Origin: a virus
Virus record (IMG/VR): IMGVR_UViG_3300023281_001520
Location: 1 to 42,141 of that record
Length of the DNA: 42,141 nt
Direction: 5' to 3' (one strand)
This document shows, one piece after another, positions 2,766 to 6,332 of the stretch. Below the pieces are notes generated by a model that did no database searches, was not told the DNA's origin, and saw nothing but the letters and a program-made list of their open reading frames with translations. The position numbers were made by a program, and so were the translations under genes. The first letter of the stretch is position 1; every line of letters begins with the position of its first letter.

Positions 2766-3008
2766 ATGAAACAGAAGCAGGAAAATAAGCCCCAGATCAA
2801 AACAACACGGAGCAAAAGAGGATCATACCACGTAGTCAATATAGAACACTTACCAACGGGTATAAAAGTGGAAGGGGAGGGGAAGGTTTTCTATCGCTTG
2901 AAGCTGGATCTCATATCGGAGCTTAATAAGCTAATTGCGGATAGCGGGTACAAGATGATTAAAGAACTTGCTAGCCCAGACGAAATCAAATCGAAGTTGC
3001 ATAGCTAA
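2766..3008 (+). CDS. release-factor-like miniprotein (RF-1 core without GGQ), tentative
   Basis: 80 aa, immediately after the nuclease stop. The central segment VVNIEHLPTGIKVEGEGKVF resembles the VRITHIPTGI-V strand-turn region of bacterial class I release factors, followed by a helix (LDLISELNKLIADSG) where those proteins have their RSQ..NK..A helix. The catalytic GGQ and its flanking loop are absent. Phages carry several small RF-1-like proteins of unknown role. The similarity is short and I rate it weak. The last 78 bases overlap, in antisense, the end of the HAD-like gene. Confidence 0.45.
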   Translation: MKQKQENKPQIKTTRSKRGSYHVVNIEHLPTGIKVEGEGKVFYRLKLDLISELNKLIADSGYKMIKELASPDEIKSKLHS

Positions 3009-3410
3009 GTCAAAATCGGTTGATACTTGACCAACTATCAAGCAATCCCTATTCTTCAGCCCCTTTTCTTGGACAGGGTGAGTGATAACTCTAACATCGG
3101 TGGAATATTTGCAGACCATCGAAGACCAATAGATATCATCGAATCTACCGGGTCCTAGAAGGCTATTAGTTTTTTGGAAGCCTAGCATAAGGTCTTCAGG
3201 AACAAAGTTTTTTTTCTCGCCAAGGTCGATTTGATGACTAAGGCCAATAACATTGTATCCATGGCGTTGCAGGCTTATCATTATGGGTCTTCGCCCAGGC
3301 ACTAGCTCAATATCAGACGGCCCAATTATGTGAGACTTATTAAATCTTGATCGACGAATTGAGTTATCCATATTTATAAAAATAGTTTTTTTACGTCGAT
3401 AGATACTCAT
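2931..3410 (-). CDS. HAD-fold protein with degenerate active site (pseudophosphatase-like)
   Basis: 159 aa on the minus strand. The start at 3410 is chosen because it overlaps the upstream stop (TAATG), although an in-frame ATG exists at 3446. The chain follows class III HAD phosphatases of the HisB-N/GmhB/polynucleotide-phosphatase type: TIFINMDNSIRRS (motif I), GPSDIELVPG, HGYNVIGLSHQ (motif II, Ser58), and GQVSTDFDLAM...FVWASKFF (motif IV). Motif I normally reads DxDGT; here it is N13-M-D15-N-S, so the nucleophilic aspartate is asparagine. In motif IV the first Asp is Gln128 and Asp132 remains. No clear motif III lysine is seen. The fold call is by motif order. Loss of phosphatase activity is inference. 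A binding role is possible. Confidence 0.6.
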   Translation of the reverse strand: MSIYRRKKTIFINMDNSIRRSRFNKSHIIGPSDIELVPGRRPIMISLQRHGYNVIGLSHQIDLGEKKNFVPEDLMLGFQKTNSLLGPGRFDDIYWSSMVCKYSTDVRVITHPVQEKGLKNRDCLIVGQVSTDFDLAMQLRFDFVWASKFFNHLVPAIRN

Positions 3411-3658
3411 TAATACCCTTGGTATAGTTTCTTGCACTTCACACAAGCCTTTGCTTTTATCTTAACCCCATTCTTTAAATATGTAGTTCCAACTGTGATG
3501 ACTTCATGATCGCACATGATTTGCTTAAAAATGATATATGTCACTGCAAATGGGTATACTGTTACCATTGTAACAAAATACATAAATCCTTTCTCTTTTT
3601 TAGTTCTTGGCTTGAATTTACTGTCATTTGGAAAATGAAATACGTTGCTATTGTCCAT
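3410..3658 (-). CDS. membrane protein with C-terminal zinc knuckle
   Basis: 82 aa. The start at 3658 is chosen over 3700 because GAAGGTGAC sits four bases upstream. A polar basic N-terminus (about 25 aa) is followed by one transmembrane segment (FMYFVTMVTVYPFAVTYIIF, about 26-45), then a C-terminal CDH...KACVKCKKLY element that could bind zinc through Cys/His/Cys/Cys. The stop overlaps the start of the HAD-like gene, so the two are translationally coupled. No family recognised. Confidence 0.55.
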   Translation of the reverse strand: MDNSNVFHFPNDSKFKPRTKKEKGFMYFVTMVTVYPFAVTYIIFKQIMCDHEVITVGTTYLKNGVKIKAKACVKCKKLYQGY

Positions 3659-3845
3659 AAAAGTCACCTTCTTTAAAAGTTTTGAAATCTTCTCGTTCAT
3701 ACTCCCTCACGATGTATTTTAGGTCTACAAGAAAGTTACCATTTCTCGATGTAGATATTATTCGGCCAATATATTTATAAAACGTATCGTTCTTTTTGGT
3801 GATTAAAACTTTATCACCCGGCTTTATGAACGTATAATCTAACAT
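3648..3845 (-). CDS. small beta-rich (SH3/KOW-like) protein
   Basis: 65 aa. The pattern FIKPGDKVLITKKNDTFYKYIGRIIS...NGNFLVDL looks like a small SH3/KOW-type barrel (PGDKV..I, GRI.S..NG.FLV), a common shape in phage accessory proteins. It is the first gene of the three-gene minus-strand cassette. It overlaps the following gene by 11 bases and its start codon lies against the divergent cassette. The predicted promoter for that divergent cassette sits inside its first codons. Function unknown. Confidence 0.5.
   Translation of the reverse strand: MLDYTFIKPGDKVLITKKNDTFYKYIGRIISTSRNGNFLVDLKYIVREYEREDFKTFKEGDFYGQ
3811..3838 (+). promoter_or_regulatory. sigma70-like promoter for the lipoprotein cassette
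   Basis: TTATCA (3811-3816), a 16-base spacer, and a perfect TATAAT (3833-3838). Transcription would begin near 3845, about 25 bases upstream of the coiled-coil gene start at 3871. It lies inside the 5' end of the divergent 65-aa gene. Evidence is by consensus match only. Confidence 0.5.
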
Positions 3846-3870
3846 GATTTACTCACACGTCGGAGGTTTT

Positions 3871-4233
3871 ATGAGTTGGGAGCTATTTAATCCTTTTCAG
3901 CGATTGTTTTGCTGTATCTCAGTTTTAATATTAATTTCTCAAGGGGCGGTTATATACACCCAACATTATAACAAAAAGGAGATTAGCTTCTCTTGTCCTA
4001 AAATCCCTCCTCAACCGAGGCCCAGAAAGGTTGATCTATCCGGCTTGAAGAAGATTAGCTTGAAGATTGATGCAGTCCTTAAGAGCAATAAAAATCTGAG
4101 TCGAATACTTAAAGATCAAAAGAAGCTAGATAGAATTACAAAGGATCATAAGAAGCTAGATAAAATCATCAAGAACCAATGGAAAGTTGATCGAATAATA
4201 CAAAGGCTCGATACATGGGGTGTAGAAAAATAG
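3871..4233 (+). CDS. membrane-anchored coiled-coil protein (spanin-like topology)
   Basis: 120 aa. The start at 3871 is chosen over 3844 because CGGAGG lies four bases upstream. It has an N-terminal transmembrane segment (LFCCISVLILISQGAVIY), a short proline-rich stretch (CPKIPPQPRPRKVDL), then about 70 residues of charged helix with a ten-residue beat (RILKDQKKLD, RITKDHKKLD, KIIKNQWKVD). An N-in/C-out periplasmic coiled coil is the topology of phage inner-membrane spanins, and a small lipoprotein gene lies downstream. Two cytochrome genes lie between, however, and the endolysin is 30 kb away, so spanin is one hypothesis only. It could equally be a tether for the cytochrome lipoproteins. Confidence 0.5.
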   Translation: MSWELFNPFQRLFCCISVLILISQGAVIYTQHYNKKEISFSCPKIPPQPRPRKVDLSGLKKISLKIDAVLKSNKNLSRILKDQKKLDRITKDHKKLDKIIKNQWKVDRIIQRLDTWGVEK

Positions 4234-4300: not shown

Positions 4301-5758
4301 ATGAGAACAAAGTTAATCTCTTGGTTTGCTGTTAATTATATTTTGGGCTTTATTCTAGCCTTGTCATTATCATGTGAGAAAGAAAAAACTCGTGTGACTG
4401 ATGATGGGCAAACACAGTTCCCAGTACCATCAAGGCCAGTTCCTCCGCCCGTTGATAATAACCCGGATTTCGTAGCTTTCGACAACTTAGAATCAAACTT
4501 GTTGTTGGATATGAACACGATACCAAGTCAAGACAGGACATCGACTAGGTATCTAATTCTTTGTGATAAATTTAACGAGAAGACGGGTAATATTGGGGTA
4601 TATGCTGGCGGGGTCAATAAAGCACTGAACCATTTAAGCTGGGAACGGGATATAAAAAACACAATTGCCGCAGATCCTAACTCTTGTATCTTTCGCTTAA
4701 ATCTTGATGACTACGATCTAACGGCGCAGGATTGGAGGCTGATTGAAAGATCTGACCCCTTCAAGCTGGAAAGTTTTACTACAAGAGGGCTTCTCTTGAA
4801 GCAGTTGAGTCAAACGGCCCGATTATGGATACACGCCCATAATTTTATCAACGTATCTCATAACAACGATACCTATTATCAACTGTTAGATATCCCAAAC
4901 ACAGTATTAGGTTTTCAAGAGCTATTCGGGGTCAATAACCAAGCCGACTTTGACAACTTTGACAACGATCTATTCCTATTAGGCTTTTTTGGCTCACCTA
5001 TAAGCCTTCAGAAGAATCGGTTACTTCAGAGGAATGACGGGGACGATGGCCCAGTATGGTCAACTTTTGATACATTAGTTGATGGAGCTGTAAACGCCCA
5101 AAAAAATCTATTCGAAAACCCTTTTCCTCTAGCGGCTAGATCCCGCAGGGTCTTCGTAGCGGATGGATCGGAATATATAGCAACGCTGCCAAATGGGCTT
5201 CATGCTTATGCTCTATTCGATGCTAACGACCAAATTATCACGGAGGCCCCGCTTAATTTGGTTATTGATATTAATAACGGCAATCTTGATCCTACGATCA
5301 GAAATAGCCTTAGCTGCATGAAATGCCACAGATCTGGGGCACTTGCCGCAGACGATCAGATAAGAGATCATATTGCCGGTAACTCTTCTTTCGGCGCTCT
5401 CGATTCGCAGTTAGGCCAAGCATACTTTAGGAGCCCTGGTGCTAATGCTGCAATTTTTAGGCAGGATCAAGCTAGGTATAAGGAATCTATGGAGAGGATA
5501 GGTATAAATACGAGCGATGATGATCCAGTAAATCTTTTGACAAATACGCTTAGAAACGAATGGAGCGTTAAGCAGGCTGCTAGTTTCTATTTCCTTAAAG
5601 ATGAAGAATTTATAGAGTGCTTAGAAGGCAGCGCAGACGCTAAAGAACAGATCGGTCAATTATTAAATGGTGGGACTGTATCGTTTGACCAAATGGTAGC
5701 TACTAACCCGATTCTAATTCGGGATTGTAATTTATTTCAAGACGATATTAACGGATAA
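4301..5758 (+). CDS. monoheme c-type cytochrome lipoprotein
   Basis: 485 aa with Shine-Dalgarno GTGAGGGGACA. A lipoprotein signal (hydrophobic to ALSLSC25, then EKEK) predicts export and lipidation. A heme-attachment motif C339-M-K-C342-H343 is present. Around it the sequence matches a cellular family I recall as c-type cytochrome domain proteins of Planctomycetes and Myxococcota: an ADGSEYIATLPNGLHAYALF strand block, then LVIDI, then NSLSCMKCHRSGALAADDQI. Heme would be attached outside the cytoplasm by the host Ccm or Ccs system. The role (electron transfer, peroxide handling, surface masking) is unknown. It is the first gene of a cytochrome pair and 13 bases upstream of the second. A complete non-virion-like lipoprotein cytochrome in a phage is unusual. 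Confidence 0.75.
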   Translation: MRTKLISWFAVNYILGFILALSLSCEKEKTRVTDDGQTQFPVPSRPVPPPVDNNPDFVAFDNLESNLLLDMNTIPSQDRTSTRYLILCDKFNEKTGNIGVYAGGVNKALNHLSWERDIKNTIAADPNSCIFRLNLDDYDLTAQDWRLIERSDPFKLESFTTRGLLLKQLSQTARLWIHAHNFINVSHNNDTYYQLLDIPNTVLGFQELFGVNNQADFDNFDNDLFLLGFFGSPISLQKNRLLQRNDGDDGPVWSTFDTLVDGAVNAQKNLFENPFPLAARSRRVFVADGSEYIATLPNGLHAYALFDANDQIITEAPLNLVIDINNGNLDPTIRNSLSCMKCHRSGALAADDQIRDHIAGNSSFGALDSQLGQAYFRSPGANAAIFRQDQARYKESMERIGINTSDDDPVNLLTNTLRNEWSVKQAASFYFLKDEEFIECLEGSADAKEQIGQLLNGGTVSFDQMVATNPILIRDCNLFQDDING

Positions 5759-5770
5759 GGAGAGTAAAAA

Positions 5771-6157
5771 ATGTTCTACGCTTTTATTATAACACTTAGC
5801 TTTTTGACGGTTGGTTGTGGTGGGAGCGAGACAATTATAGAAAAGCAAGCCCCGGCACCCGCTCCAACTACTCCTCCAGCAAACCCAGGTAATGGCGGCG
5901 GGGCTGGCGGCGGCGTCGGCGGCGGCGGCGGGGCGGTTAATTTTGCTGGGACCATCAAGCCCATGCTCAACAAGTTTTGTGCTCAAAGTGGCTGTCATGC
6001 TGGGGCCGGGTTTATTCAGACAGAGGCCGCTTTTTTAAATTCACGGAGTAAAATAAGGGTTGGAAATGGAACTATGCCGCCACAATATTCGCCGAATTAC
6101 AACCAATTTACACGAAAAGAAAAAGCTCTTTTCTCTGCTTATTTTGATAGTAATTAA
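5771..6157 (+). CDS. small cytochrome c lipoprotein (CxxxCH, MPP)
   Basis: 128 aa, with AAGGAGAG seven bases upstream. It has a signal peptide ending in LTVGC16 (lipobox), then a Pro/Ala and Gly-rich linker (about 26-56), then a compact cytochrome-like domain: FAGTIKPMLNKFC70AQSGC75H76 and GNGTM102PPQ. I..ML...C...CH followed about 26 residues later by MPP is the usual order of heme attachment and distal Met ligand in class I cytochromes c. CxxxCH is a less common spacing but is known to bind heme in some bacteria and is frequent in deltaproteobacterial and Bdellovibrio-type lipoproteins. Its likely partner is the larger cytochrome directly upstream. Heme binding is inferred from motifs. Confidence 0.75.
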   Translation: MFYAFIITLSFLTVGCGGSETIIEKQAPAPAPTTPPANPGNGGGAGGGVGGGGGAVNFAGTIKPMLNKFCAQSGCHAGAGFIQTEAAFLNSRSKIRVGNGTMPPQYSPNYNQFTRKEKALFSAYFDSN

Positions 6158-6332
6158 TTCGGGCTGCATAAATACGGTCACTGAGGTATCTAAGGACCAG
6201 TGGAACTACTGCCACAAGACTTGCGGCATAGGGCGGCTTCACTCGGCAGGTATGGACTGGTTCAACGGCGAAGAAACTTGTACCTGTATCGACAGGCTTC
6301 GATATAGGATGGAGCCTATTGAGCGCAGATAA
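6060..6332 (+). CDS. small cysteine-rich lipoprotein overlapping the cytochrome gene
   Basis: 90 aa. The only ATG starts are 6060 and 6066, with AAGGG six bases upstream, so its first 98 bases overlap the preceding gene in the +1 frame. The N-terminus is long and basic (ending HEKKK), followed by a hydrophobic LFSLLILIVINSGC with the cysteine as probable lipidation site (position -3 is Asn, off consensus). The mature part has CHKTC and CTC arranged as YCHKTCG...ETCTCID, a paired-cysteine layout seen in small phage and bacterial lipoproteins. Overlap plus size recall outer-membrane spanins, which often overlap another gene. The role is unassigned. Confidence 0.5.
   Translation: MEMELCRHNIRRITTNLHEKKKLFSLLILIVINSGCINTVTEVSKDQWNYCHKTCGIGRLHSAGMDWFNGEETCTCIDRLRYRMEPIERR

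Follow-up and report, generated by a model that had tools for sequence, protein, structure and literature searches.

Metabolic genes are a known part of phage genomes, and cyanophage plastocyanin, a close copy of a well-known host protein, is a phage-borne electron carrier. In the Bacteria, the di-haem cytochrome c peroxidases combine one Met-ligated donor haem with one reactive haem. A further point of reference is the cytochrome P460/c'-beta superfamily, to which its fold is confined and whose members have very low sequence similarity to one another (2025 review, PMC11928373). Lysine-linked members of this superfamily oxidise hydroxylamine, unlinked hydrophobic members bind NO, and an unlinked c'-beta with a distal Arg is reported to have peroxidase-like activity (PMC11928373). 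The open-licence papers that we searched, on phage-encoded cytochromes, haem proteins, and Planctomycetes or huge phages with cytochromes, describe no exported pair of c-type cytochromes. Here, we describe a putative pair of this kind, which is a real, conserved module in phages, predicted to carry two haems, and apparently new to that literature.

The pair lies in a stretch of viral DNA of 42,141 nt (IMG/VR record IMGVR_UViG_3300023281_001520), called the window below. Two adjacent ORFs, encoding a large exported CxxCH protein of 485 aa (positions 4301..5758, plus strand) and a small exported lipoprotein of 128 aa (5771..6157, plus strand), are separated by 12 bases from stop to start and sit right before the terminase gene. 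Their coordinates are those given in the original prediction, which had also assigned them to a phage; the carrier is clearly one, because the terminase, portal, and capsid genes come consecutively and straight after the pair. The window also encodes RecT, exonuclease VIII, and a DnaB-like helicase. No host could be assigned to this phage, whose closest named terminases are just ~23–29% identical; tblastn against named phages gave no relative, and the window terminase has no relative in those pair-carrying viral contigs that were compared.

The gene order of the window recurs in another viral contig, L002 (14.6 kb), which comes from the same type of phage. The upstream neighbour of the pair, a protein of 129 aa (3844..4233, plus strand) that has a single hydrophobic segment and a coiled-coil-like tail rich in lysine, is 66% kept in L002. 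Another small ORF with an exported product, the third here (6066..6332, plus strand), contains several cysteines and no CxxCH; read in a different frame from the 128-aa gene, whose end it overlaps, it shows 83% identity in L002. Further upstream, a minus-strand ORF of 171 aa (2931–3446) has an 82% identical counterpart in L002, with synonymous sites saturated between the two, and is therefore a real gene; its product, which we take to have the look of a HAD-type phosphatase, has Asn in place of the first catalytic Asp (FINMDNS) in both phages.

The large protein starts with an N-terminal hydrophobic signal including Cys25, a sequence pattern that indicates export. Cys25 (LSLS-C; 4373..4375, plus strand) is the putative site of lipid attachment and is followed by a polar, Pro-rich tether. 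The lipoprotein signals originally proposed for both proteins fit the classical lipobox in the window, and that of the small protein (putative lipid-attachment Cys16, LTVG-C; 5816..5818, plus strand) does so in L002 as well, whereas the large protein of L002 (LNLS-C) departs from the pattern. The large protein is thus likely, if less than certain, to be anchored by a lipid.

The haem c motif of the large protein, CMKCH, occupies residues 339–343 (C339, C342, and H343, as predicted; 5315..5329, plus strand); its CxxCH pattern is found in 17/17 aligned family members and at 36/36 cellular loci. Within the family core (approximately residues 56–467), Asn239, Arg240, Trp253, Asp257, and Glu291 are near-invariant across the 17 members, Arg240 being fully invariant. 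No Lys is conserved in 15 or more of the 17, although the counterpart of the P460 cross-link position was not located, and the family conserves no Met or second His that could serve as a sixth haem ligand.

Between the window and L002, the large protein is 85% identical (pS 0.77, pN 0.095 for its gene) and the small protein ~82% identical (dN/dS ~0.07), compared with a dN/dS of ~0.04 for portal and capsid. All motif residues of both proteins are retained. Because synonymous sites are nearly saturated and amino-acid changes are few, both proteins must be maintained by selection; in other words, both window genes are under purifying selection, and motifs kept across such a distance are not there by chance.

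The small protein carries the haem motif CAQSGCH at residues 70–76 (5978..5998, plus strand), kept in L002, and an MPP at residues 102–104 (6074..6082, plus strand) with M102 as the candidate distal Met ligand; MP is present in 13/13 of the viral partner proteins discussed below. The original prediction had C70, C75, H76, and M102 in their right places, but named the motif CxxxCH, which is in fact CX4CH, a rarer form; the other viral partners carry CxxCH. A Pro/Gly linker joins the lipobox to a compact cytochrome c-like domain, the same architecture as in the partners (L042–L062).

The window proteins have no cytochrome model, and nothing else useful, among their matches in the Pfam, PHROGs, NCBIfam, and PADLOC profiles, and PDB sequence searches gave no match; searches of Pfam, NCBIfam, and PHROG turned up no model of the large-protein domain. 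The original prediction had looked to profile searches of the two chains for similarity to cytochromes. Taken literally, this outcome would fail the finding, and it is the family context alone that rescues it.

That context came from wider scans. Two search alignments (A3 and A5) were padded with artificial sequences keeping only the expected motif columns and served as scan queries only; for each match, a tblastn run with the unaltered sequence of the window gave confirmation. Among bacterial genomes, a scan with a degenerate motif picked out one Poribacteria protein. The large protein matches 66 of 85 Poribacteria genomes over residues ~55–467, at ~25–32% identity across ~400 residues and with E-values down to 9e-40. 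At every one of the 36 Poribacteria loci read (35 distinct genes, as L004 and L005 are one), a c-type cytochrome domain with a second CxxCH, itself a weak PSCyt1 match, is fused just before the family domain; at four additional loci, the front cytochrome domain is intact in three. A tblastn search of plasmids with the window protein found one relative, on a Neorhizobium plasmid (NZ_CP123001.1; L040:71-7013), where the fusion is as in Poribacteria and adjoins a ferric-reductase-like gene; caspase-family and OmpA-family genes also belong to this cluster. The single-chain fusion is absent from the window and L002, which have two separate genes. The fusion in cells gives good grounds to conclude that the two proteins of the phage act together.

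It should be mentioned that one contig classed as viral (L041, IMGVR_UViG_2740892559_000001) contains a gene for a fused protein of the Poribacteria type, with a tape-measure-like ORF of 970 aa a few kb away. It is possibly Poribacteria DNA or a provirus with the fused form, and we grouped it with the fused proteins of cells and not with the viral pairs. Cytochrome P460 (PF16694) genes also occur in 72 of 83 Poribacteria genomes, often with two or three matches each.

When viral contigs were scanned with the deeper alignment, five new ones came up besides the Poribacteria-like one; a second scan added nine, two of them near-identical, leaving 13 distinct contigs. These are 18–343 kb in size, mostly large and unrelated, and include T4-like giants, and all have the large-then-small order of the window. 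In 13/13, the gene after the large one, at -55 to +78 bases, encodes an exported protein in which a long linker of Pro, Gly, and Gln precedes a C-terminal domain of ~70 residues bearing CxxCH...MP. CxxCH occurs in just three of the 254 other ORFs of those stretches. All five partners that were scanned match Cytochrome_CBB3, one above the curated cut-off, and the viral partner domain is related by profile to the fused Poribacteria domain (E 2.7e-12). The search for the pair elsewhere, suggested with the original prediction, thus turned up 13 more viral contigs and the fused forms in Poribacteria and Neorhizobium.

Mis-sorted host DNA was considered as a source of these contigs and rejected for seven of 14, in which there are genes for a terminase, a T4 portal, or baseplate J; the viral status of the other seven rests on the IMG/VR classification. 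In a family tree that is unrooted and has long branches, the 13 viral members form one group (99/99); the window and L002, on a long branch, lie on the other side together with the fused proteins of cells (99/99). On the simplest reading of this tree, phages have probably acquired the genes on at least two separate occasions, both times in the large-then-small arrangement.

Several of these contigs share further genes around the pair. A papain-like cysteine protease precedes it in L057 (L057:4354-5196; Pfam Peptidase_C1 just over the cut-off), and similar genes do so in L043, L054, L055, and L056. In clusters of this type, the protease is followed by a small helical protein, the cytochrome pair, and then a Gly-rich exported protein, which makes a conserved cluster whose products are mostly exported. 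In L062, the gene preceding the pair (L062:3881-5860) contains an intein-like Hint/LAGLIDADG insertion.

How firmly can the two proteins be called cytochromes? Judged by its deep family and invariant CxxCH, the identification of the large protein as a c-type cytochrome is well supported. The small protein is another matter. Aligned with the 13 viral partner domains, it scored 75% in hhalign with E 2.4e-5, and one of 500 motif-keeping shuffles scored higher; with a smaller partner set, three of 400 did so, and against the fused Poribacteria cytochrome domain there was no significant similarity. Its sequence link to cytochromes beyond the motif is therefore only suggestive. We call it a cytochrome mainly because of the order of its motifs and because it has its architecture and gene position in common with the partners, its own similarity being the weakest step. 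The cytochrome identity claimed at the outset accordingly stands for the large protein and for the pairing, and is less secure for the small one. Taking together the gene fusion in cells and the strict adjacency in 13 other viral contigs, which support the pairing, the presence of two adjacent c-type cytochromes on a phage appears well supported.

An AlphaFold model of the large-protein core built from two sequences reached a pLDDT of 34; one built from 17 sequences reached a pLDDT of 70 and a pTM of 0.75, with about five main strands ahead of the CxxCH, confidence being moderate overall and low just before and at the haem motif. According to AlphaFold and VIA-align, residues 193–392 (4877..5476, plus strand) would form a beta-sheet domain with the CxxCH that resembles cytochrome P460/c'-beta. 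Foldseek, the check proposed originally, gave no significant match to this model in the PDB and viral libraries. When Foldseek's top 1000 PDB chains were aligned with VIA-align, 15 P460/c'-beta chains took ranks 1–15 with Z-scores of 5.0–3.6, the next, unrelated chain scoring 3.1; a Z of 5 is in the range where VIA-align warns of common arrangements. The best match, 7ead, has its CxxCH at 116–120 of 135 residues, and model residues 144–299 align to chain residues 1–135, which puts the model motif (285–289) at about the same place. By profile, the large-protein domain aligns to P460 no better than to an unrelated CxxCH domain, and PF16694 found no match in phage records at E up to 10. The model thus resembles cytochrome P460/c'-beta weakly but consistently.

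The original prediction listed several possible roles without choosing among them. A redox pair reactive towards peroxide or NO now looks the most likely. We give about an even chance to a redox pair of the envelope, whose large protein would bear a reactive haem that the small cytochrome supplies with electrons, perhaps for the removal of peroxide or NO. Both proteins would be exported to the envelope, probably as two lipoproteins, and the Ccm system of the host, if it has one, would attach the haems. The small protein may act as a compact mono-haem cytochrome c with His76 and Met102 as ligands, attached by its flexible Pro/Gly tether and receiving electrons from the host respiratory chain. 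These electrons would pass from the small to the large protein, whose haem (His343) would sit in the domain looking like P460/c'-beta. In this domain, a cross-linking lysine is not conserved while Arg (the invariant Arg240), Asn, Trp, Asp, and Glu are; the c'-beta for which peroxidase-like activity is reported has a distal Arg and no Lys cross-link (PMC11928373). Such a domain would most likely reduce a small oxidant such as peroxide, or bind and turn over NO, in the periplasm, and may in this way sustain the function of the host cell or of its envelope in the late stages of infection. More tentatively, and with the odds somewhat against it, we speculate that this is a two-component haem enzyme: a new P460/c'-beta-like family of peroxidase or NO-handling proteins, each served by a tethered cytochrome c, which unrelated phages would have taken up on two or more occasions, which would be a standard module of many giant phages, and which would control oxidants or respiration in the host envelope.

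The main rival is an electron relay without catalysis, which would tap host respiration or send electrons outward, with an oxidase or an extracellular acceptor receiving them, for energy supply during infection. It would account for two mono-haem proteins that always occur together, and for a family domain that is fused to cytochrome domains and adjoins a ferric-reductase-like gene in Neorhizobium. However, the large protein lacks a conserved Met or second His as a sixth ligand, which favours an open, reactive haem, and we regard the relay as rather unlikely. Roles in surface exclusion, in the virion, or in lysis are less likely than the relay. Lipoproteins that change the surface of the host or keep further DNA from entering (superinfection exclusion), with the haem structural or incidental, would suit exported lipoprotein-like genes beside structural genes, a common site for such genes, and the clustering of the pair with other exported genes in viral contigs. 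On the other hand, the domain and its pairing exist in cells as long fused proteins, the CxxCH is invariant, and the superinfection-exclusion lipoproteins known to us are small and haem-free, so that this explanation seems improbable.

A tail- or baseplate-associated component, or one acting with late lysis genes, might be suspected from the position of the module, ~2–3 kb from a baseplate J gene in two contigs and just before the terminase in the window; the signal peptides indicate export from the cell and not cytoplasmic virion assembly, and we consider this very improbable. The chance seems slightest of all that the phage proteins are no longer haem proteins and are captured cellular genes whose motifs now bind a metal or form disulphides. 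In its favour, neither window protein directly matches a cytochrome model, and the small one has CX4CH, but the invariance of the motif, the pairing, and the purifying selection speak against it, and one partner passes the Cytochrome_CBB3 cut-off.

The envelope redox pair, if confirmed, carries a wider meaning. Unrelated phages that keep an exported c-type cytochrome pair as a unit point to a need for envelope redox chemistry during infection, and suggest that some viruses equip the envelope of the infected cell with redox machinery of viral origin. One small operon also opens an untouched protein family, multi-copy in Poribacteria, to direct functional study.

Among the known systems closest to the pair are the fused Poribacteria proteins (e.g., L004, 1119 aa, with TonB_C and FGE-sulfatase), which share nearly the whole large protein (~26–30%) and a cytochrome c domain; these differ in being single chains with the cytochrome domain first, often with more C-terminal domains, and in being cellular and multi-copy. 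In its model, the large protein seems to share with the P460/c'-beta superfamily (PF16694; PDB 7ead, 7s5o, 6hih, and 6amg) a predicted antiparallel sheet followed by CxxCH near the domain end. It differs in that it has no detectable sequence relation to that superfamily, places the domain within a protein of ~430 residues whose N-terminal half is additional and helical and which has further helices at the C terminus, has no invariant lysine, and is fused to or paired with cytochrome c. PSCyt1 (PF07635) and Cytochrome_CBB3 (PF13442) are compact CxxCH...MP domains like the partners, and the Poribacteria domain and viral partners match them weakly to moderately, whereas the small window protein has CX4CH, a shorter domain, and no Pfam cytochrome match. 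By analogy, the division of labour that we propose would resemble that of the di-haem bacterial cytochrome c peroxidases, with a Met-ligated donor haem and a reactive haem, although a different fold is expected, the phage uses two chains, and the window proteins match no profile. Like carriers of the cyanophage plastocyanin type, the window proteins would be redox proteins brought by a phage for its host cell; unlike them, they belong to an unnamed family and form a recurring two-gene module.
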